From positions 62,001 to 126,000 of the forward strand of contig CAUJDF010000039.1 in the NCBI GenBank assembly GCA_963169045.1: a DNA stretch of 64,000 nt, in the 5' to 3' direction. The DNA comes from Myxococcota bacterium. GTDB lineage: Bacteria > Myxococcota_A > Bradymonadia > UBA7976 > UBA1532. The notes under the pieces were generated by a model. That model made no database searches and was not told where the DNA came from. It saw only the letters and a list, made by a program, of their open reading frames with translations. The position numbers were made by a program, and so were the translations under genes. Each line of letters opens with the position of its first letter. Positions within the stretch are counted from its first letter, which is position 1. Below, piece by piece: positions 5,796 to 17,793 of this stretch.

Positions 5796-7310
5796 GTGAT
5801 CATCTGTCCGAACTGCGCTCGGGAGAACGAATCCCACTACAAGTTCTGCCTGGGCTGCGGCACCGAGCTTTCGAAGTCGGCGGCGAAGGCCGCGGCGGCG
5901 GAGCCGCGGCCTGCCGCCGCGGAGGCCGCGACCCCGCGTCCGGTCGCGACGGCGTTGCCCCAGGCCGCCCCCCGCGCCGGCGGTCGGGCGCCGGCGCCCG
6001 CCCCGAACGTCTCCGCCGTGATCGCGCGCCTCGCGGCCGCCGATGCGCCAGCGCCCGCGGCGCCCGCGCCCGTCGCCGTCGCCATGGCCACGCCGGTCGC
6101 GCCGTCGGTGCCGGTCGCGGTGGCCGCCGTCGTCGCTGAGCCGCAGACCGACGAGATCGCGCCCGAGGCGCCCGCGTCCGAGGAGCTCGGGCCGCCCTTC
6201 GACGAGGGCGCGGGCATGTTGCCGACGCTGGCCGTCTCCGTCGAAGAGGTGCGCGCGGCGCTGGCCGACAGCCAGGCCGCGGAGCTCGCGGCGTCCAGCC
6301 TCGAGGCGGGCGGCGAGCTGCTCCAGACGAACCCCGGCGTCGAGGCGGTCAGCACCTCGGCGCCGCCCGACGAGGCGGCGCCGCCGGTCGCCGACGATCC
6401 GGACCTGCCGTTCGACGTCTCGGGCGCGGGGGAGCCGCTGCCCGCCGCCGACGCGGCCGTCGGCGGCGCCGCGGAGCTGCCCGATCCGCTCGCTGACGGG
6501 GATGCCCACGGCGCCCCGGCCGCGCTCGATGCGCACCTCTGCCGCTCGTGCGGGGCGGTGGTGCCGCCGGGCTTCCGGTTCTGTGGTGTCTGCGGCTCGC
6601 GGTATGAGCCCGCCGAGGCGCCCGCCGCCGCGATGTTCGTGCCGCACCTCGGTGCGGGCGAGACGGCGCCGGCGCGGCTGATCGTCATCCACCCCGACGG
6701 GAGCGAGGGCGAAACGTTCCCGCTCGGCCCCAGCGAGACGCTGGTGGGGCGTCTGCACCCGTCGCCGCTCTTCGCCGACGATCCCTTCCTGTCGCCGCGG
6801 CACGCCACGTTCTACTTCGTGAAGAACCAGCTGTTCGTGCGCGACGAGGCGTCGCTCAACGGCGTGTTCCTGCGGATCAAAGCTGAGGTGGAGCTCTTCC
6901 ACGGCGACATGTTCCGCATCGGGCAGCAGCTGCTCATGTTCGAGGAGATGCGGCAGGTGCGCCCCGTCCTGCCCGGCGCAGGCGACGGCACAACGGTCAT
7001 GGGCTCGCCGGCCCGTGGCGCGTGGGGTCGCGTCTCGAGCGTCGTCGCGGTCGGCACCAGCGCCGCCGTCTGGACGCTCCGTCGTCCCGTCGAGGCGTTC
7101 GGCCGTGAGCGCGGCGACATCCTCTTCCCCGAGGACGGCTTCGTCAGCGGCGCTCACTGCCGCCTGCACCAACGGGACGGCCGCTTCTTCCTGCTCGACC
7201 TCGGCAGCACCAACGGCACCTACCTGCGCGTCAAGGGCGAAGGCATCCTCGCCCGCGGCGACCTGCTCCTCCTCGGCCAGCAGCTGTTCCGCATCGATCT
7301 CCGGCACTGA
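5796..7310 (+). CDS. Two zinc ribbons plus two FHA domains, long Ala/Pro linker
   Basis: A 504-residue paralogue of the preceding gene, starting at GTG. It has an N-terminal zinc ribbon (CPNC and CLGCG, residues 4-24), about 220 residues of low-complexity Ala/Pro/Glu-rich linker, a second zinc ribbon (CRSCG and CGVCG, about 249-268), and two FHA domains (about 288-385 and 405-503). The first FHA has SPRHATF and ASLNGVF; the second has SGAHCR and STNGTYL. Compared with its neighbour, a linker and an extra ribbon have been added. The start is supported by GGAG and a G-rich stretch upstream. It is probably a phosphothreonine-reading scaffold co-transcribed with 4965-5759. Partners are unknown. 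Confidence 0.87.
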   Translation: MIICPNCARENESHYKFCLGCGTELSKSAAKAAAAEPRPAAAEAATPRPVATALPQAAPRAGGRAPAPAPNVSAVIARLAAADAPAPAAPAPVAVAMATPVAPSVPVAVAAVVAEPQTDEIAPEAPASEELGPPFDEGAGMLPTLAVSVEEVRAALADSQAAELAASSLEAGGELLQTNPGVEAVSTSAPPDEAAPPVADDPDLPFDVSGAGEPLPAADAAVGGAAELPDPLADGDAHGAPAALDAHLCRSCGAVVPPGFRFCGVCGSRYEPAEAPAAAMFVPHLGAGETAPARLIVIHPDGSEGETFPLGPSETLVGRLHPSPLFADDPFLSPRHATFYFVKNQLFVRDEASLNGVFLRIKAEVELFHGDMFRIGQQLLMFEEMRQVRPVLPGAGDGTTVMGSPARGAWGRVSSVVAVGTSAAVWTLRRPVEAFGRERGDILFPEDGFVSGAHCRLHQRDGRFFLLDLGSTNGTYLRVKGEGILARGDLLLLGQQLFRIDLRH

Positions 7311-7366
7311 CCGGGTCGCGCCTACCCCCCCTCAAGCCGCGCCGCCGTGCCGCCGTGACAAGGGGC

Positions 7367-7768
7367 ATGGAAAAAACCGAACATCGTGAAGCGCAGGCCC
7401 GGGCCGAGATCAACGGAATCCAGCGGCGCCGCTTCGAGCGGCTCGCGGTCGAGATCGAGGTCAACCTGACCAGCGATCACAACTTCTACACGGCGTTCAC
7501 CCAGAACATCAGCGAGGGGGGGCTGTTCGTGGCCACCACCCGGCTGATGCCGGTGGGCACGCCCATCGAGTTCTCGTTCACGCTGCACCCGGATCCCGAG
7601 CCGATTCAGGTCACGGGCAGGGTCAAGTGGGTGCGCGATCCCGTGCTCTACAACCGGGACACGGTGCCCGGCATGGGCATCGAGTTCGGCGTCCTCGACC
7701 CGAGGCTGCAGAAGAGAATCAACGACTTCATCGTGCGGACGCGCGACTCGCTGTTCTACGACGAGTGA
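7367..7768 (+). CDS. PilZ-domain protein
   Basis: A 133-residue single-domain protein. The PilZ fold is shown by RRRFERLAVEIEV near residue 25 (RxxxR) and QNISEGGLFV (N/D-x-S-x-x-G) about 25 residues later, the two motifs that contact cyclic di-GMP; both are intact, so binding is likely. A GGDEF protein that could make the ligand is encoded at 46054. The ATG at 7367 has AGGGG only one base upstream; a GTG at 7355 is also possible. The last 13 bases overlap the end of the convergent hydrolase gene. Confidence 0.85.
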   Translation: MEKTEHREAQARAEINGIQRRRFERLAVEIEVNLTSDHNFYTAFTQNISEGGLFVATTRLMPVGTPIEFSFTLHPDPEPIQVTGRVKWVRDPVLYNRDTVPGMGIEFGVLDPRLQKRINDFIVRTRDSLFYDE

Positions 7769-8661: not shown

Positions 8662-9245
8662 CAGGGGGCCTCCCAGTGCAGGTCGACGACCGCCGGCGGG
8701 CCGGCGATGCGGAGGGTCACGCGCTTCGGATCGGGCAGCTGCGGGAACGTCACCCAGTAGACCGTCGTGAGCGGACCCACATACGGAAAGAACGGAAACA
8801 GATCCGCCTGTCGCTCGTCGCTCACCTGCTCGACGGACGTGGGCCGAATCTCCTCGCCACCCTGCACGATCGCGACGCGCAGCGTCGACCCTTCGCCGCC
8901 GAGATCGCTCCACCGCGGATCGTGGGTGTTCAACGCCAGGATGAACCGCGCTTCTTCGGCCGCCGTCTTCACCAGCGCCTCGCGTCGGCCGGTGGCCTCG
9001 GACGTCGGCAGCGCGAGGCGCTCCTGGGCGCGCTCGGCGTACGCCGCGGCGAAGGCGGGTGAGAACCACGTGGCCCGCACGAACAGGCGGCCGACGAATT
9101 CTTCGTACGCTTCGCCGCCGCGCGTCCAGCGGTTCAGCGCGCCCTCGTAGGCGGCGGGCAGGCGGACCGGCGCGTCGGTCGCCAGCATGGGCGCCGACGG
9201 ACCGCCGCAGGCACACAGCGCGAGCGCGATCAGCGCCCGCCTCAC
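8661..9245 (-). CDS. Small lipoprotein in bactofilin-pyrE operon
   Basis: A 194-residue lipoprotein starting at GTG, with signal RRALIALALCACGG and a lipobox Cys near residue 12-14. The mature part is mixed alpha/beta (for example NTHDPRWSDLGG) and ends with a beta-rich segment; I recognise no family. Its GTG overlaps the pyrE stop by four bases (GTGA), and its own stop overlaps the hydrolase start, so expression is tightly linked. Its likely location is the inner leaflet of the outer membrane or the cytoplasmic membrane. Confidence 0.78.
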   Translation of the reverse strand: MRRALIALALCACGGPSAPMLATDAPVRLPAAYEGALNRWTRGGEAYEEFVGRLFVRATWFSPAFAAAYAERAQERLALPTSEATGRREALVKTAAEEARFILALNTHDPRWSDLGGEGSTLRVAIVQGGEEIRPTSVEQVSDERQADLFPFFPYVGPLTTVYWVTFPQLPDPKRVTLRIAGPPAVVDLHWEAP

Positions 9246-9832
9246 GGCGACAGGCCCGCCCGCAGATCGTCGAGCGTGAAGAGCGCGTCGACGGGCAGGC
9301 CATCGCGCTCGAGCGCCTCGCGTCCGCCCGCCTGGCGGTCGACGATCGCCGCGACGCCGAGCGGCTCGAGGCTCTCCTCGCGCACGCGCTCGGCGGCCCG
9401 CAGGGTGGAGCCGCCGGTGGTGACGACGTCCTCGAGCAGGATCACGGCGCTGCCGTCCGGCAGGTTGCGGCGGCCTTCGACCCAAGCGCCCGTCCCGTGC
9501 CCCTTGCGCTCTTTGCGGACGAGGAACGCGGGCAGGTGCCGACCCCGCGCGAACGCGGCGAGGCTGACGGCGGTGGCGAGCGGATCGGCCCCGATGCTCA
9601 TGCCACCGACGCCAGCCGCCGTGCAGCCGAGGCGCGCCTCGAGGCGCTCCACGGCGTCGAGCAGCAGCGCGCCGAGCGCCGCCGCCCCCTCGGGGTGCAG
9701 CGCCGTCTGCTTGCAGTCGAGGTAGAAGTCGCTCTTCTGGCCCGAAGCCAGGACGACCTCGCGGCGTTCGTACGACAGCGACAGCAGCAGCGTGCGGAGG
9801 CGGTCGCGATCGGGGGGGGTGGCGGCGGTCAC
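9242..9832 (-). CDS. pyrE: Orotate phosphoribosyltransferase
   Basis: A 196-residue enzyme that joins orotate to PRPP to give OMP in pyrimidine synthesis. The PRPP-binding signature VILLEDVVTTGGS lies near residues 130-142. The family's N-terminal motif is present (SGQKSDFYLDCKQ), and RKERKGHG matches the flexible catalytic loop. Length is normal. The start is GTG, overlapping the stop of the upstream bactofilin by four bases, and its own stop overlaps the next start by four bases. A pyrimidine gene inside a cytoskeletal operon is unusual. Confidence 0.95.
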   Translation of the reverse strand: MTAATPPDRDRLRTLLLSLSYERREVVLASGQKSDFYLDCKQTALHPEGAAALGALLLDAVERLEARLGCTAAGVGGMSIGADPLATAVSLAAFARGRHLPAFLVRKERKGHGTGAWVEGRRNLPDGSAVILLEDVVTTGGSTLRAAERVREESLEPLGVAAIVDRQAGGREALERDGLPVDALFTLDDLRAGLSP

Positions 9833-10461
9833 TTCTTCCTGCGGACGTTGACCTTCTTGGGGGCAGCGCCGTCGGGGAGGTCGGGTTCCTCGCCCTCCGG
9901 TTCGTCGCCGCTGCCCTCTTCGGCCATCGCCGGCGCGGGCTCGGGCGGCGGCGGTGCGGCGGGGGCGGGGCGCGGCGCCGGACGCGCCGGCGGCGGTGCC
10001 GGACGCGCAGGCGGCGGCGCCGGCCGGCCGGGCACCGGCGCGCCGGGGCGGCCGGCGGCGGGCGCGCCCGGACGCGATCCGGGCCGGGCGGGCGTCGCCA
10101 CGGCGGCCGGGCGGCGCGGCGCCGGCTCGGCACCCTCGACGTCGCCCATGTCGATGGCGCCGGAGAACGCCGCGCCCTCGTCGATGATGATGCGGGGCGC
10201 CGTGAGATCGCCGAGCACGCGCGCCGTGGACGAGAGCTCGACGCGATCGCTGGCGATCACGTTGCCGACGTAGATGCCGTGGATGATGGCGGCGATGACC
10301 TCGGCGTCGGCCTCGACCCGCGCCTCGGCGTCCACCAGCAGCTCGCCCTCGAGCCGGAGCGTGCCCCGAAGCTGACCGAGGACGGTGACGTCCTCGGCGC
10401 CCTCGACGCGGCCGCTGACGACGGTGCCGGGCGCGATGACCGTGGTCGACTTCGCGGCCAT
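9829..10461 (-). CDS. Bactofilin with Pro-rich tail (third of three)
   Basis: A 210-residue protein. Residues about 10-110 form the bactofilin beta-helix (DUF583), with six-residue strand repeats such as VSGRVEGAEDVTVLGQL. It then has about 90 residues of Pro/Ala/Arg low-complexity sequence and a basic end, PKKVNVRRKK. Bactofilins polymerise spontaneously at the membrane. In Myxococcus xanthus three of them (BacNOP) scaffold chromosome-segregation proteins, and one carries an extended tail; the arrangement here is similar, but no parAB or padC follows. The ATG has GGAG seven bases upstream. One base separates it from the preceding bactofilin stop. Confidence 0.9.
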   Translation of the reverse strand: MAAKSTTVIAPGTVVSGRVEGAEDVTVLGQLRGTLRLEGELLVDAEARVEADAEVIAAIIHGIYVGNVIASDRVELSSTARVLGDLTAPRIIIDEGAAFSGAIDMGDVEGAEPAPRRPAAVATPARPGSRPGAPAAGRPGAPVPGRPAPPPARPAPPPARPAPRPAPAAPPPPEPAPAMAEEGSGDEPEGEEPDLPDGAAPKKVNVRRKK

Positions 10462-10824: not shown

Positions 10825-11187
10825 TCAGCGGCGGCGCTGAGGCTGGCCGCCCTGGGCGGCGGCGCGGGTCTCGAGGCCGGGGATGTCGACGTGCATGGTG
10901 ACGCGCCCCTTGAAGCGGGCGCCGTCCTGGATCACCAGCCGCGGCGTGGTGAGATCGCCGACAACGATCGCGCCGGCCTCGAGCGTCAGGCCTTCGTTGG
11001 CCACGACGCTGCCGCGGACCGTGCCGCCGACGGCGACGGTGCGCGCTTCGACGTCGGCCGCCAGCTCGGCACCGGGCTGGATGGTCAGGTCGCGGGACAG
11101 GCGCACCGACCCCTCGATGCGGCCCTCGACGGTGAGGTCCTCGTCGCCGCTGACGTTGCCGCGGATCGTGATCCCCGGACCGATCAT
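10825..11187 (-). CDS. Bactofilin (first of three)
   Basis: A 120-residue bactofilin beginning MIGPGITIRGNVSGDEDLTV, with the full beta-helix core and a short basic tail (QGGQPQRRR). It is the promoter-proximal gene of the operon bactofilin x3-pyrE-lipoprotein-hydrolase. The start has GGAGG eight bases upstream, and a near-consensus promoter lies 34 bases further up. Confidence 0.93.
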   Translation of the reverse strand: MIGPGITIRGNVSGDEDLTVEGRIEGSVRLSRDLTIQPGAELAADVEARTVAVGGTVRGSVVANEGLTLEAGAIVVGDLTTPRLVIQDGARFKGRVTMHVDIPGLETRAAAQGGQPQRRR

Positions 11188-11220: not shown

Positions 11221-11249
11221 GTCATAAACCCTGCGCTGGTCAGTGTCAA
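11221..11249 (-). promoter_or_regulatory. Sigma-70 promoter of the bactofilin-pyrE operon
   Basis: Read on the minus strand, TTGACA (a perfect -35, bases 11249-11244) is followed after 17 bases by TATGAC (11226-11221, 4 of 6). The predicted start of transcription is near 11214, giving a leader of about 27 bases that carries the GGAGG of the first bactofilin. The -35 overlaps the stop codon of the upstream MPN-like gene. This is the strongest promoter match I found in the window. Confidence 0.7.
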
Positions 11250-11776
11250 CGCGCGTCGGGGCGGATCAGGCCGACCGGCGAGGTCTGCCATTGATCGCCC
11301 ACGCTGCGCAGCGCGAGCGGCGGCCGATCGTCGGCCGGGACCTGCACCGCGACCTGCCACGGCTGGGTGAAGAAGGTGTTGTGCAGCACCAGGGCGTCGG
11401 GGTCCCAGGCGGGATCGGCGCCACGCCACGAGAGAAACCACCCCACCACCTCGGCGGTGGGGAAGTGATAGCGCAGCGTCGCCCCGGCGGACCGCCACTG
11501 CGTGCGGAGGTAGCGCCCGAAGTCCTTCAGGTCGTCGGCGTGCGTCGCCGCGATGAACCCCTCGACCTCGACGTATCCCTCGCCGGTGTCGGGGCAGCGG
11601 AAGTGGGCGCCGACGAGCAGGCCGCCGGCCACGCGGGCCGGCTGCCAGCCGCCATTGAAGCGGATCTCGTCGAGCACGTCGCCGAACAGATAGGCGGCGG
11701 GCGGCTCGGGAGTGGGCGTCACGACGGGCGGTCGGGCACGGGTGAGGGCTTCGATCACGCGTCTCGTCTCGCACAC
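11246..11776 (-). CDS. MPN/JAMM-like protein lacking metal ligands
   Basis: A protein of about 176 residues (GTG start at 11776; a GTG at 11758 and an upstream ATG at 11848 are alternatives, none with a clear Shine-Dalgarno). After a Pro-rich lead come a strand-helix region and the segment AEVVGWFLSWRGADPAWDPD, then LHNTFFTQPWQVAVQVPAD. This order matches the MPN (JAB1/Mov34) fold, where the same place normally reads VGWYHSHP...D...H..FF..PWQVALVVDP. The HxH of the metal centre is replaced by FLS, so it should not be an active deubiquitinase-like metalloprotease but a structural or binding version. The assignment comes from pattern memory, without a search. It sits directly upstream of the bactofilin operon. 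Confidence 0.6.
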   Translation of the reverse strand: MCETRRVIEALTRARPPVVTPTPEPPAAYLFGDVLDEIRFNGGWQPARVAGGLLVGAHFRCPDTGEGYVEVEGFIAATHADDLKDFGRYLRTQWRSAGATLRYHFPTAEVVGWFLSWRGADPAWDPDALVLHNTFFTQPWQVAVQVPADDRPPLALRSVGDQWQTSPVGLIRPDAR

Positions 11777-11865
11777 TCGCCGATTCGTTACAAGACCTGG
11801 CTTTCCCCCGCCGTCGGAGGTTCCGTATAGTGAGGTCTCGGCCGCCACACGGGGGAATCCGCCGC

Positions 11866-14800
11866 TTGCGCCGTACGACTACGTGGGGATGGGGAATCCG
11901 CGCGCTCCTGCCGATCGTGCTCGCCCTGGCGGGCTGCGGTGAGAGCAGCAGCAGCGGCGGCGACGACTTCCGCGTCGACATCGGCGCCGAGGGCGTGCCG
12001 GCGGCCGACAAGCTGGTGCTCACGGTCAAGCGCGAGACGCCCTCCGGGCGGGTCGTCGTCAGCCGGTCGGCCAGCCTGTCGAACGGCCTGCTGATCGACC
12101 GACCGGTCCAGCTGCCGAAGGACGCCGTGCCGCCGGGGGAGGGGCCGCTCTACGTCCACGCCGTCGCGCAGCTCGAAGGCAGGGCCGTGGCCGTGACCGA
12201 CGGCGCGGTCGGCGACGGCGCGGAGGGGCGCTTCACCTTGAAGGTGGTCCCGCTCGTCGCCAGCTGCGACCGCGACGGCGACACGTACCGCGACTGCACC
12301 AACGTTCGCGACGAGTGCTGTGTCGACGTTCCCGAGGCGACGCGCGCGGCCGTCATCGATTGCGTCGACGATCCCGCCGGCATCGCGCCCCCCGTCACGC
12401 CCGACGGGAAGCGGCGGCGCGCCGAGGCCGCCCACGGCTTCGCGCCGTCCGAGAACGCCGGCGACTACGCGACCTGCGGCAACGGCCTCGACGACGACTG
12501 CCGCGGCGGCGATCTCGCCTGCGACACCGAGACGGACGCCGACGGCGACCAGCACCCCATCGCCGAGGACTGCAACGACGCCGACGACCAGATCCACGTC
12601 GGCGCTTACGACCGGCCGGGCGACGGCGTCGACCAGGACTGCGACGGCATCGACGGCTTCGGCACCGACGAGGACGAGGACGGCTGGCTCGCCGACGATC
12701 CGGACGAGGCGCGCCGCGACTGCGCCGACGACGATCCGCGGCGCTTCCCCGCCGCGGCCGAGGTGCCGTGCGACGGCATCGACCAGGACTGCGACGCCAG
12801 CGATCCGTGCCCGGACATGGGCGACATGGACGCCGACGGCGTGCCGGCGGCGGTCGACTGCGACGACTACGATGCCGGGGCCTTCCCCGGCGCGCGCGAG
12901 CGGTGCGGCGATGGCATCGACCAGGATTGCAACGGCACGGACCTGGCCTGCGCCGAGGGCGACACCGATCGCGACGGGCGCGTCGGGGCCGACGATTGCG
13001 ATGAAGGCAATGCGTTCGTCCACCGTGGGGCGCCGGAGAAGTGCGGCGACGGCGTCGACCAGGACTGCGACGGCGCCGATCTGCCCTGCGCCGGCGTGCG
13101 CGACGGGGACGGCGACGGCTTCGCGGCGCCCGCGGACTGCGACGACGGCGCGGCGGAGGTCCATCCGTTCGCCGACGAGCTCTGCAACCTGATCGACGAC
13201 GACTGCGACGGTCTGCTCGACGAGGGCTCGCCCCTGCGCCTGGCCGCGGGTGACGTGCCGCGGGAGCCCACCTGCGGTCTCGAGGGCGGCACCTGCTTCC
13301 TCGGCCGCAATGTCTGCACGCGGGACCAGGTCGAAGGCGGTCCCGCGCGCCCCGCCATCGTGTGCCTCGGCCAGGAGCCCCAGCCCGAGGTCTGCGACGG
13401 CCTCGACAACGACTGCGACGGCATGAGCGACGAGCCGGACCAGGAGGACGGGCGGCTCTCGGACGAGGGGCTCGAGGCTTGCGGTCCCGAGCGTGAGATG
13501 GGCGGCTGCCGGCGCGGCACGCTGTTCTGCGAGAACGGGTCGCTGAGCCGTTGCGTGGGCGCCGTCTTCCCGGCCGAAGAGGAGTGCAACGGGGCCGACG
13601 ACGACTGCGACGGTCGGGTCGACAACGACGCCGCCGGCGGCGCCCTGACGCGCGCGTGCTTCGACGGCGCCGAGGATTTGCGCAACCAGGGGCTCTGCCG
13701 CGACGGGATCCAGCGCTGCGACAACGGCCGCTTCGGCGCCTGCGAAGGCCAGGTCGTGCCCGCCGACGAGACCTGCGACACGAGGGACGAGGACTGCGAC
13801 GGGGCCGCCGACGACGAGGTGCTCGCCGACTGCTACTCGTTCCCGCCGGAGACCCGTGGCGTGGGCGTGTGCGCCGCCGGCCGGCGCCTTTGCGCCGACG
13901 GCGTGTTCGGCGAGTGCGAGGGCGAGGTGGGCCCGTCGCCGGAGCAGTGCAACAACCGGGACGACGACTGCGACGGCCGCATCGACCAGTTCGCCGAGCG
14001 GTGCTTCGAGGGCGATCCCGCGGTGATCGACGTCGGTCGATGCCGCGCCGGCGAGCGCGCGTGCATGGGCGGCAACTGGACGGAGTGCCGTGGACAGATC
14101 GTCCCCGAGGCCGAGACCTGCGACCTCGAGGACGACGACTGCGACGGCGCGATCGACGAGGACTTCGACCTGCTGACCGATCGCCAGAACTGCAACCAGT
14201 GCGGTCGTGCCTGCGGTGATGCCGAAGAGTGCTGCCAGGGCCGTTGCCGTCGGCTCGACACGGCCGAGAACTGCGGGGCGTGCGGGAACTCCTGCGATCG
14301 CCGCGCCGACCGTTGCGAGGTCGGCCCCGACAGCGCCCGCTGCCGCTGCGGCGACGGCGACGCCTGCCCCGATGGGCAGCGATGCGTCGACGGCCAGTGC
14401 CGCTGCCTGAGCAATGACGACTGCGGGCCCGACCAGCTTTGCTGCAACGGCGCGTGCCAGGCGACGCGCGTGGAGGCCGGCCCGAACGGCGAGCCCGCCC
14501 AGTGCGCGGCGTGCGGCGATGGCGGCTGCAACCCGCGCTTCGCCGAGCACTGCGAAGAACGCGTCTGCAAGTGCGGTGACACCGACGCCTGTACCGGCAC
14601 GACGGTGTGTCTGCAGGACGACGACGATGGCGAGTACCTCTGCTTCGGGTGCGAGCGGGACCGCGACTGCCTGCAGGCCGGGACGATCTGTTGCCGCAAC
14701 GCATGCGTGCCGGTGAACGCCGACGCGCAGTGCGAGGCGTGCGGCGAGCGGTGCTCGCCGACGGCGGCGGACCGCTGCGTCGAGGTGGGCCGCAACGCGG

Positions 14801-17793
14801 AGCCGCCCGTGGCCTGCGTGTGTGGCGATGGTCGCGCCCCCTGCGCCGCGCCGACGCCGTTCTGCATCGGCGGCGCCTGCGAGGAGTGCCGCAACGACGC
14901 CGACTGTCCCGGAGACCGCTCGCGCTGCGTGGACAACGTGTGCCGCGAGTGCAATCCGGCGGATCACCGGCCATGCGGCGCCGACCAGCTCTGCTGCAAC
15001 TTCCGCTGTCAGGCGACCGGGCCCACCGCGGGCGAGCAGTGCGAGGCCTGTGGAGAAGCCTGCGACCAGCTCTCGACGAACCGGTGCACGGGACGGGACT
15101 GCCGCTGCGGCAACAACCCGGAGTGCAGCGGTGCCACGCCGATCTGCGACGACGCGCGCGGGGTGTGCGTGAACTGCCGCAACGACACGGATTGTCAGGG
15201 AAATCCGAACGGCGGCCAGTGCGTGAACAACGTGTGCCGCACCTGCGATCCCAACGGACACGACGGCTGTGCCGGCAACCAGCTCTGTTGCGCGCGCGGC
15301 GGCGTGCCGCGGTGCGAGGCGACCGGGTCGCGGCAGGGCGACGAGTGCGAGGCCTGCGACGTGGCGTGCGCCCAGGCGCCCACCAACGCCTGCAACGGTC
15401 GCTCGTGCGGGTGTGGCAACGGCCCGCCGTGCGGCGGCGGCACGCCGATCTGCGACGACGGCCGCAGCCTCTGTGTGGAGTGCCTCGTCGACGGCCACTG
15501 CAACAACCGCCCCGGTGGCAGCCAGTGCGTGAACAACGTCTGTCGTCCCTGCGATCCGGGCGACCATGCCGGCTGCGGCAACGATCAGCTGTGCTGCAAC
15601 TTCCAGTGCCAGGCCACGAGCGGGGCCGTGAACGGTCAGTGCGAGGCGTGCGGCCAGGCGTGCGGCAGCAGCGCCGACACGTGCCGGAACCGCGACTGCG
15701 TCTGCGGCGGCGCCGCGGGGGCGGCCGCGTGCGGTGATCCGAGCCCGTTCTGCCAGAACGGCGCGTGCCAGCGCTGCCGGAACAACAACGACTGCGCCGG
15801 CAACGAGCTCTGCTGCAACGGCGCATGCGTGCCGACGGGTGCCGAGGCGCCCCTGCCGTGCACCGCGTGCGGCACCTCGTGCAACGCCACGAACTCGAAC
15901 CTCTGCACGAACCGCGGCTGCCGGTGCGGCGTGAACAACGCGTGCGGTGGCGCCTCACCGGTGTGCAACGACGCCGCCGGCCGTTGCGTGCAGTGCCTCG
16001 CCGACGTCGACTGCAATGGGCGCGCAGGCACGCCCGAGTGTGTCGGCGAGACGTGTCGCGCCTGCGATCCGGCCACGTCGGCGGGCTGCGCCGAGAACGG
16101 CGCCATGCCGATCTGTGATGCCGGGAACTTCACGTGCCGCACCTGCAACGGCGACGCGGAGTGCGTGACGCGAAATGGGAATCAGAACGAGTGCGTCATG
16201 GGCCGTTGCCGCGCCTGCGAGCCGGGCACCAACGCCGGCTGCAGCGACGAGACGCCCACCTGTGATCCCATGTCGTTCACCTGCCGCGCCTGCGCCAACA
16301 ACAACGAGTGCACCGCCGGCCAGCAGTGCGTCGCCGGCGCCTGCGTCGGCTGCAACCCCGCCAACGGCGCCGGCTGCGGACCGGATCAGCCGATCTGCGA
16401 GGCGGGCACCTTCGTGTGCCGGACGTGCCGCAACGACAACGAGTGCGGCGCGCGCACCGGCCCCGAGGACCAGTGCGTGCTCGGCCGCTGCCAGGCCTGT
16501 GACACGGCAGATCACGCGGGCTGTGCCGCCAACCAGCTATGCTGCAACTTCCAGTGCCAGGCGACCGGCGCGGCGGCCCCTGCGGCGTGCCAGGCGTGCG
16601 GTGTGTCGTGCAACGCCGACAGCACGAACACGTGCAACGGCCGGGCGTGTCGCTGCGGCAACAACGCGCCCTGTAGCGGGCAGACGGCCTTCTGCGACGA
16701 TCCACGCGGCGTCTGCGTGAACTGCCGCGACGACGACGATTGCGGCGGTGCGCGCGGCGAGTGCGTGAGCAACGCCTGCGAGGCGTGCGATCCCGCCGAT
16801 GACAGCGGCTGCGCCCCCAACAGCAACACGCCCATCTGCGCCGGCGCGACGCCGGCGTGCCGCGCGTGCCAGAACGACGCCGAGTGTCCCAACAACGGTC
16901 AGTGCCTCGCCGACGGTCGCTGCCGTCCGTGCGATCCCACGAACGCGGCGGGCTGCGGCGAGGGCAGCGCGGCGCCGATCTGCGACGCGGCCAATGCCAC
17001 GTGCCGCGCCTGCGCCAACGATGGCGAGTGCGCGGCGCGGCCCGGCACCCTCGACTGGTGTGTCCAGGGAGAATGCGAGGCCTGCAAGCCGGCCGACAAC
17101 TCCGGCTGCAACGCCGCGAGCGCCACGCCGATCTGCGACGCCGCCTCGCGGACGTGCCGCGCATGCAACAACGACGTGGACTGCAACGGGAATCCGAACG
17201 GCGGGGAGTGCGTCGCCGGCGCCTGCAAGCCGTGCGATCCCGGAGACTATGCGGGCTGCGACGCCGCGAGCGCGACGCCGGTGTGCAACGCGGCGTTCGC
17301 GTGCGTCGGTTGCACCCTCGACCCGCAGTGCGTGACGAGTCCGGGCAACGCAGATCAGTGCGTCGCCGGCGGCCGCTGCAAAGTCTGCGACACGGCGGAT
17401 CACGCCGGGTGCGTCGAGTCCAGCGCGACGCCGATCTGCGGCGCCGGCAATACGTGCGTGGCCTGCGAGGAGGACGACGAGTGTGCCGCGCGGCCCGGCA
17501 GCCGCGATCTGTGTGTCGACGGCGCCTGCAACGTGTGCGATCCCGACGACAGCCGAGGTTGCGTCGCCCAGGTCTGCAGCGCGCAGCAGTGCGTCGCGTG
17601 CACCGGCGACCCGGACTGCGACGGTCATCAGAACGGCGAGGTGTGCGACGACGGCCTCTGCGTCGAGTGCGCCGATCACGCCGACTGCATGGGTCGACTC
17701 TGCACGGCCAACGTCTGCGTGAACTGCGCGACCGACGAAGACTGCGAGAACGCCGAGCTCGGCGACACCTGTAACAATGGCACCTGCCAGTAG
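11866..17793 (+). CDS. Giant MopE-related, cysteine-repeat lipoprotein
   Basis: A 1975-residue lipoprotein. The TTG at 11866 has GGGGGA about 10 bases upstream and gives a clean signal ending LALAGC; TATAGT at 11826-11831 may be its -10. Residues about 140-770 hold eleven units of the MopE-related putative metal-binding motif (D-x-D-C-D/N-G with acidic surroundings). From about residue 770 to the end the sequence is an array of Cys-rich modules. A larger module of about 95-100 residues containing QLCCNF.CQATG recurs four to six times, then shorter modules of about 45 residues with TPICDA..TCRAC follow. There is no membrane anchor other than the lipid. It is probably a disulfide-stabilised surface fibre binding calcium or another metal; the role is unknown. 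Its end overlaps the next gene by 17 bases. Confidence 0.88.
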   Translation: MRRTTTWGWGIRALLPIVLALAGCGESSSSGGDDFRVDIGAEGVPAADKLVLTVKRETPSGRVVVSRSASLSNGLLIDRPVQLPKDAVPPGEGPLYVHAVAQLEGRAVAVTDGAVGDGAEGRFTLKVVPLVASCDRDGDTYRDCTNVRDECCVDVPEATRAAVIDCVDDPAGIAPPVTPDGKRRRAEAAHGFAPSENAGDYATCGNGLDDDCRGGDLACDTETDADGDQHPIAEDCNDADDQIHVGAYDRPGDGVDQDCDGIDGFGTDEDEDGWLADDPDEARRDCADDDPRRFPAAAEVPCDGIDQDCDASDPCPDMGDMDADGVPAAVDCDDYDAGAFPGARERCGDGIDQDCNGTDLACAEGDTDRDGRVGADDCDEGNAFVHRGAPEKCGDGVDQDCDGADLPCAGVRDGDGDGFAAPADCDDGAAEVHPFADELCNLIDDDCDGLLDEGSPLRLAAGDVPREPTCGLEGGTCFLGRNVCTRDQVEGGPARPAIVCLGQEPQPEVCDGLDNDCDGMSDEPDQEDGRLSDEGLEACGPEREMGGCRRGTLFCENGSLSRCVGAVFPAEEECNGADDDCDGRVDNDAAGGALTRACFDGAEDLRNQGLCRDGIQRCDNGRFGACEGQVVPADETCDTRDEDCDGAADDEVLADCYSFPPETRGVGVCAAGRRLCADGVFGECEGEVGPSPEQCNNRDDDCDGRIDQFAERCFEGDPAVIDVGRCRAGERACMGGNWTECRGQIVPEAETCDLEDDDCDGAIDEDFDLLTDRQNCNQCGRACGDAEECCQGRCRRLDTAENCGACGNSCDRRADRCEVGPDSARCRCGDGDACPDGQRCVDGQCRCLSNDDCGPDQLCCNGACQATRVEAGPNGEPAQCAACGDGGCNPRFAEHCEERVCKCGDTDACTGTTVCLQDDDDGEYLCFGCERDRDCLQAGTICCRNACVPVNADAQCEACGERCSPTAADRCVEVGRNAEPPVACVCGDGRAPCAAPTPFCIGGACEECRNDADCPGDRSRCVDNVCRECNPADHRPCGADQLCCNFRCQATGPTAGEQCEACGEACDQLSTNRCTGRDCRCGNNPECSGATPICDDARGVCVNCRNDTDCQGNPNGGQCVNNVCRTCDPNGHDGCAGNQLCCARGGVPRCEATGSRQGDECEACDVACAQAPTNACNGRSCGCGNGPPCGGGTPICDDGRSLCVECLVDGHCNNRPGGSQCVNNVCRPCDPGDHAGCGNDQLCCNFQCQATSGAVNGQCEACGQACGSSADTCRNRDCVCGGAAGAAACGDPSPFCQNGACQRCRNNNDCAGNELCCNGACVPTGAEAPLPCTACGTSCNATNSNLCTNRGCRCGVNNACGGASPVCNDAAGRCVQCLADVDCNGRAGTPECVGETCRACDPATSAGCAENGAMPICDAGNFTCRTCNGDAECVTRNGNQNECVMGRCRACEPGTNAGCSDETPTCDPMSFTCRACANNNECTAGQQCVAGACVGCNPANGAGCGPDQPICEAGTFVCRTCRNDNECGARTGPEDQCVLGRCQACDTADHAGCAANQLCCNFQCQATGAAAPAACQACGVSCNADSTNTCNGRACRCGNNAPCSGQTAFCDDPRGVCVNCRDDDDCGGARGECVSNACEACDPADDSGCAPNSNTPICAGATPACRACQNDAECPNNGQCLADGRCRPCDPTNAAGCGEGSAAPICDAANATCRACANDGECAARPGTLDWCVQGECEACKPADNSGCNAASATPICDAASRTCRACNNDVDCNGNPNGGECVAGACKPCDPGDYAGCDAASATPVCNAAFACVGCTLDPQCVTSPGNADQCVAGGRCKVCDTADHAGCVESSATPICGAGNTCVACEEDDECAARPGSRDLCVDGACNVCDPDDSRGCVAQVCSAQQCVACTGDPDCDGHQNGEVCDDGLCVECADHADCMGRLCTANVCVNCATDEDCENAELGDTCNNGTCQ

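Follow-up and report, generated by a model that had tools for sequence, protein, structure and literature searches.

A predicted MPN pseudoenzyme encoded beside bactofilin genes in one family of the Bradymonadia, and mostly beside enolase in other families of the class

What is an MPN-like protein without metal ligands doing directly in front of a row of bactofilin genes? The question comes from a stretch of 64,000 nucleotides of a Myxococcota genome from the class Bradymonadia, the whole of which we call the window. It is a bacterial question with a eukaryotic background, since it is mainly from eukaryotic scaffolds that MPN− domains are known. We take it in steps: the gene and its fold, the loss of the ligands and the spread of the family, the neighbouring genes, and finally the role that these suggest.

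The gene and the fold of its product

A minus-strand open reading frame with AEVVGWFLSWRGADPAW...FFTQPWQVAVQVP occupies window positions 11246-11776. The preliminary description of this DNA had it as a gene, and it is indeed real, lying on the minus strand directly upstream of three bactofilin genes. Where does translation begin? We compared 11 rows from the window's own family, here f1 (window included, L012 left out), at the codon aligned just before a conserved IE, VE, LE or NE, or just before E in the case of L010. GTG stands there in eight rows and ATG in three. Because one or the other is found at the aligned position in all 11 rows, we place the start at 11758; the start codon is very probably GTG, 11758-11756, which gives a protein of 170 residues. 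Residue numbers in this text are counted from the earlier start at 11776.

11246..11758, minus strand: gene of the probable MPN-fold pseudoenzyme, 170 aa from a probable GTG start (an earlier, longer version began at 11776)
11708..11758, minus strand: codons of the N-terminal tail, VIEALTRARPP..., specific to f1 and probably disordered
11759..11794, minus strand: upstream element seen in most of the 11 f1 rows, a possible promoter

Three positions at this end of the protein, E9, R15 and P16, are invariant across the nine rows of alignment A3, which holds the window protein and eight homologues found with profile A1. Two short motifs mark the upstream element in most of the 11 f1 rows: CTTG, some 36 nt ahead of the start codon, and GTGnGA, some 16 nt ahead of it. 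A sigma-70 scan of the gene's promoter region found none, and the element is possibly an alternative-sigma promoter.

The divergent neighbour, at window positions 11830-17793 on the plus strand, encodes a protein of 1987 residues with six MopE-type stretches that are putatively metal-binding (PF11617, E 6.2e-24). Nine of the 11 f1 relatives also have a similar gene in divergent orientation to the MPN gene.

An MPN fold had been claimed from the sequence at the outset, with structure prediction and profile comparison named beforehand as the check, and both agree with MPN. The AF2 model, for which A3 was the input, has a mean pLDDT of 78 and a pTM of 0.75, with residues 1-19 below 50; over the five models pLDDT runs from 78.0 down to 50.5. 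In the best of these, pLDDT averages 72 and 65 over the blocks of residues 121-140, a part that holds two of the five positions of the former motif. Among the best 50 of 581 Foldseek matches (best E 2.4e-6), 49 are titled as MPN-bearing proteins or complexes, the titles including proteasome, COP9, BRCA1-A/BRISC, eIF3, Rpn11, BRCC36 and Mov34, and one row, 9is6_F, has an uninformative title. VIA-align gives Z 14.2 and an rmsd of 2.6 Å over 141 residues against chain A of 4ocn, a crystal of Rpn8-Rpn11 in which we take chain A to be Rpn8. The same Z is reached with 8amz_U, from the plant 19S particle, and with 2o96_A, metal-free human Mov34. Sequence identity in the VIA-align rows is 10-19%.

How do sequence profiles compare? 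Profile A2 was made from 23 of the 30 proteins then collected, picked for spread. Searched against PDB sequences it returns JAMM/MPN chains in all of its first ten rows (E 0.002-0.056), among them CsRpn11 (6fjv), bacterial 2kcq and yeast Rpn11; the E-values are modest, and four of the 23 rows are non-MPN, all from rank 11 on. The narrower profile A1 puts a single JAB_MPN chain first (7ase_G, E 0.028). Pairwise hhalign comparisons with JAMM-positive proteins reach E 5.8e-12, 3e-14 and 4.6e-18, in a set (A4) of which four of the five proteins came from A2 searches and are therefore not fully independent; the fifth, a Prok-JAB protein of the window's own genome, is independent. As a single sequence the protein matches no Pfam or NCBIfam family above cut-off (PF01398 and PF14464, for example), and JAB is matched by only two of the 23 members, at best with E 0.05. 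The two hits of a single-sequence PDB search, 6tmg_h (ATPTG6, E 0.007) and 2x8r_A (E 0.64), are not MPN proteins and were dropped, since the profiles and the structure agree on MPN. As modelled, then, the window protein has an MPN fold.

Loss of the JAMM ligands and spread of the family

Are the metal ligands really gone? They had been reported as missing, and the zinc motif E...HxH(x7)SxxD is indeed absent from the window protein: in alignment with JAMM-positive proteins, V49, L115, W117, D125 and A128 stand at the places of E, H, H, S and D. For the family as a whole we aligned the window and 48 loci to the profile, giving 50 rows. The second His is absent from all 45 in-class proteins. The first-position His is kept in six of the 45, some keep S or D, and none has the full set; at the place of the Glu, 26 of the 50 rows have a gap, so this position is read from fewer sequences. 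The frame of the MPN motif that had been noticed earlier corresponds to the best conserved positions, G56, G112 and F136, together with the less strictly conserved P139 and Q141. Four relatives from other classes of the phylum (L107-L110) match the same profile and show, at least in part, the VGW....FF..P.Q frame. Unlike the window protein, all four retain E, HxH, S and D.

Lacking the JAMM zinc ligands, the window protein is therefore expected to act through binding rather than to cleave isopeptide bonds, and we infer, with high confidence, that it is a non-catalytic MPN protein. Could it instead be a diverged enzyme that is still active, having exchanged its metal ligands or doing without them? 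Its sequence does place three acidic residues, D121, D125 and D127, in the neighbourhood of the former metal site. The old S and D positions, however, are free to vary, with ten and eleven residue types in the 50 rows (the four JAMM-positive proteins included), and the alignment suggests no replacement set of ligands. An active enzyme of this kind seems to us very improbable.

How widely is the gene found? A single-sequence scan of the genome contigs gave no relative, and profile A1 led to eight loci. Within f1, homologues at 53-34% identity occur in 11 of the 12 relatives. The family profile matches 50 of the 57 class genomes, with nine candidates scored per genome; each has a single match, except that the match in G025 is split. 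The genomes with no match are G005, G013, G014, G015, G030, G044 and G050; G013-G015 are also without a bactofilin match, and G005 has only one bactofilin, of another type. Outside the class, the profile is matched by four of 320 genomes.

The computed gene tree, drawn from 48 of the 50 rows with both L072 pieces left out, runs family by family: the seven family labels need six changes, which is the minimum, even though f7 taken alone does not form a group on one side of any branch. The JAMM-positive proteins are separated from the rest by one branch (100/97) and are drawn beside f4 (91/84). If the root, whose place is not proved, lies on the JAMM-positive branch, the ligands may have been lost just once. 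The MPN pseudoenzyme is a single-copy gene family maintained at class level.

Does the protein work as the inactive half of an MPN+/MPN− heterodimer, in the manner of Rpn8-Rpn11 or CSN6-CSN5, with its JAMM enzyme encoded elsewhere? The top structural matches include Rpn8-Rpn11 crystals, and the window's own genome has one JAMM-positive Prok-JAB protein (C53:17015-17323). A Prok-JAB match is found, however, in only 34 of the 57 class genomes. None of the eight f4 genomes has one, though all eight carry the MPN gene, and five f1 members have the MPN gene without a Prok-JAB match (G001, G004, G008, G010 and G012). Nor does A2 find a second protein in any class genome among nine candidates per genome, a search in which the own Prok-JAB protein is not reported by A2. 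An obligate Prok-JAB partner was rejected from the figure of 34 in 57 and from the five f1 genomes, and we think a heterodimer of this type very unlikely.

It is useful here to set the protein against its better known relatives. Rpn8/Mov34, CSN6 and eIF3h are eukaryotic MPN− scaffold subunits; they share the MPN fold without the JAMM ligands and are among the best structural matches. The window protein differs in being bacterial, about 170 residues long and MPN domain only, in having no MPN+ partner that we found, and in lying beside bactofilins or, in its relatives, enolase. Likewise prokaryotic are CsRpn11 (6fjv), 2kcq (Mov34/MPN/PAD-1 family) and 2kks (DSY2949); 2kks reaches a VIA-align Z of 13.0, and 6fjv and 2kcq are top sequence matches. 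CsRpn11 is described as a deubiquitinase in the text available to us from PMC6043591, whereas the f1 proteins have lost the ligands.

Neighbouring genes: bactofilins in one family, enolase in the others

Downstream of the MPN gene in the window lie the following genes.

10825..11187, minus strand: bactofilin 1, 120 aa
10463..10783, minus strand: bactofilin 2, 106 aa, the best conserved of the three in f1 loci
9829..10461, minus strand: bactofilin 3, 210 aa, with a long proline-rich C-terminal tail ending KKVNVRRKK
9242..9832, minus strand: pyrE-like phosphoribosyltransferase, the next gene after the bactofilins

The three bactofilins match PF04519 with E 3.5e-24, 1.4e-25 and 8.7e-21. The order MPN-bac1-bac2-bac3, on one strand, is found in the window and in all 11 f1 relatives that have the gene, and pyrE follows the bactofilins in eight of the 11. 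The MPN gene thus heads a three-bactofilin operon in f1, with which it is presumably co-transcribed and co-expressed. No enolase lies in the fetched stretch of any of the 11 f1 loci. Five of seven f1 genomes searched have an enolase, always apart from the MPN gene; in the window genome the two share a contig but lie about 155 kb from each other.

Conservation of synteny with the bactofilins had been suggested as a test, and the answer is divided: the arrangement holds throughout f1 and does not hold elsewhere in the class, where enolase adjoins the MPN gene. Of the 33 class loci outside f1, 30 have enolase following the MPN gene in the same orientation. The three exceptions are L075 and L111, which end at a contig edge, and L116, which is without enolase. 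Among the JAMM-positive relatives outside the class, L107-L110, no enolase match was found in the fetched stretch. Bactofilins were found at none of 26 tested non-f1 loci, within fetched stretches some of which are short. Five genomes that bear the MPN gene have no bactofilin match at all (G019, G021, G022, G028 and G017), and the job of the protein outside f1 therefore needs no bactofilin. As bactofilin synteny is confined to f1 and enolase takes its place elsewhere, it follows that the protein is not intrinsically a bactofilin partner.

Two broader ideas were given up. That the MPN gene accompanies bactofilins through the whole class was rejected, the non-f1 loci having enolase instead. That f3 is a bactofilin-free family, an idea that came from G021 having none, was dropped as G016 and G018 have three bactofilins each.

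A second neighbour is a protein of about 420 residues, which precedes the MPN gene and enolase in 26 of the 33 non-f1 class loci, in families f3, f5, f6 and f7.

L065:7514-8965: example of the preceding protein of about 420 residues

No match to it was found in six f4 loci and in L064. Four members have no match in Pfam, and one member has, by eye, a hydrophobic N-terminal stretch.

Does the MPN protein, then, do the same bactofilin-independent job in all families, for example with enolase or central metabolism or with the preceding protein, and did its gene land before the bactofilins in a single rearrangement that supplied a good promoter? The downstream enolase outside f1, with two of the three exceptions running off the contig, fits such a job, as do the single copy, the family-by-family tree and the members in genomes without a bactofilin match. 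It is harder to reconcile with an adjacency to bactofilins that persists in all 11 f1 relatives, down to 34% identity and with no enolase in the fetched stretches. The preceding protein, moreover, was not found in nine family or order genomes, in a search run without a positive control. We rate this explanation a serious one, somewhat short of an even chance.

What of bactofilin clusters elsewhere? Three tandem bactofilins occur without the MPN gene at eight loci in f6 and f7, with an alpha/beta hydrolase nearby in six of the eight, an FHA protein in five and pyrE in two. Ten more loci hold two or three bactofilins each; among these, pyrE is near in all three that are in class and in four of the seven out of class, and the MPN gene is near none of the ten. 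Because these clusters have no MPN gene, the gene either joined an old bactofilin operon in f1 or remained with the operon only there.

The third tandem bactofilin was scanned in three f6 loci, and each time a SAP domain was found at its C-terminus (PF02037, E 8.4e-13, 5.9e-13 and 9.5e-11).

L146:9330-10037: SAP-bearing f6 bactofilin
L145:9215-9970: SAP-bearing f6 bactofilin
L148:9281-9877: SAP-bearing f6 bactofilin

The domain putatively binds nucleic acid, and it is fused here to a protein of the cytoskeleton. In the same place, most f1 loci have a basic KKxVxVKK tail instead.

At window positions 5796-7768, on the plus strand, lies a gene whose product combines two zinc ribbons with two FHA stretches; a PilZ protein is encoded next. 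Other families, too, have FHA proteins close to the bactofilin cluster, and in fewer cases PilZ proteins, which hints at phosphorylation or c-di-GMP as an input.

A scaffold for bactofilins?

The nearest parallel to the f1 operon is in Myxococcus xanthus. According to the portions of PMC5703909 available to us, bacNOP forms a putative operon with two other ORFs, and PadC, encoded directly downstream of bacNOP, is an adaptor that recruits ParA. The KKKVVVKK motif of BacP is given as potentially involved in PadC binding in the accessible part of PMC12448750. The host operon of the MPN gene has the BacNOP-type features of three tandem bactofilins, the third with a long tail and a KKKVVVKK-like motif. 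Among 11 complete bactofilin 3 tails (window included, one further tail being cut by a contig end), this basic motif is clear in seven, weak in two and absent in two. The likeness, as far as those portions describe the myxococcal system, lies in the three clustered bactofilins with accessory genes in one putative operon and in the long-tailed third bactofilin. The difference is that PadC is a ParBC protein encoded downstream, whereas the accessory gene in the window lies upstream and encodes an MPN pseudoenzyme of unrelated fold; a PadC-type ParBC domain was not found in the window protein, which has the MPN fold instead and no Pfam match of any kind. The adaptor model for f1 draws on this parallel because the tail of bactofilin 3 resembles the KKKVVVKK motif, which is an analogy, and we put forward an adaptor in the PadC sense only tentatively.

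The best explanation overall, in our judgement, is that the protein is an MPN pseudoenzyme that serves the bactofilin polymer of f1 as a scaffold or adaptor, without catalysis, a proposal to which we give about an even chance. That it is a functional partner of the f1 bactofilins in some form we likewise regard as evenly balanced. Four features fit a scaffold or adaptor role: the MPN− state, the fact that no Prok-JAB partner is obligate, the gene's position at the head of the operon, and an N-terminal tail that is conserved and probably disordered. In outline, a soluble scaffold would use its MPN body and its f1-specific N-terminal tail to dock a client onto the bactofilin polymer. The MPN body may form a dimer like that of Mov34 in 2o96, and docking would perhaps run through the basic tail of bactofilin 3. 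Our doubt about a bactofilin role arises mainly because of the enolase link elsewhere in the class.

What is new here? In the open-access literature we found no report of this MPN− family, or of its pairing with bactofilin or enolase. Prokaryotic JAB domains are treated as peptidases or nucleases in what is available to us of PMC3482391, and the 'inactive' domains in the available part of PMC1779556 are E2-like folds, not JAB. MPN− scaffolds as such were known already; new is a bacterial MPN− family at class level, unlabelled in Pfam and NCBIfam, that is tied to enolase or to bactofilins.

What might this mean for the class? One scenario is that the class keeps the MPN pseudoenzyme as an enolase-linked housekeeping scaffold, from which one lineage made a dedicated bactofilin adaptor, so that an MPN− scaffold would have arisen in bacteria, away from the proteasome lid, the signalosome and eIF3. 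We consider this scenario possible, though somewhat below an even chance. If the protein is catalytically dead, single-copy and class-wide, then the switch from protease to scaffold would have occurred in bacteria also. In f1 the likely partners are few and set by one small operon, which makes a scaffold role directly testable there, and the enolase link in the other families offers a second handle on the role of the protein in them.
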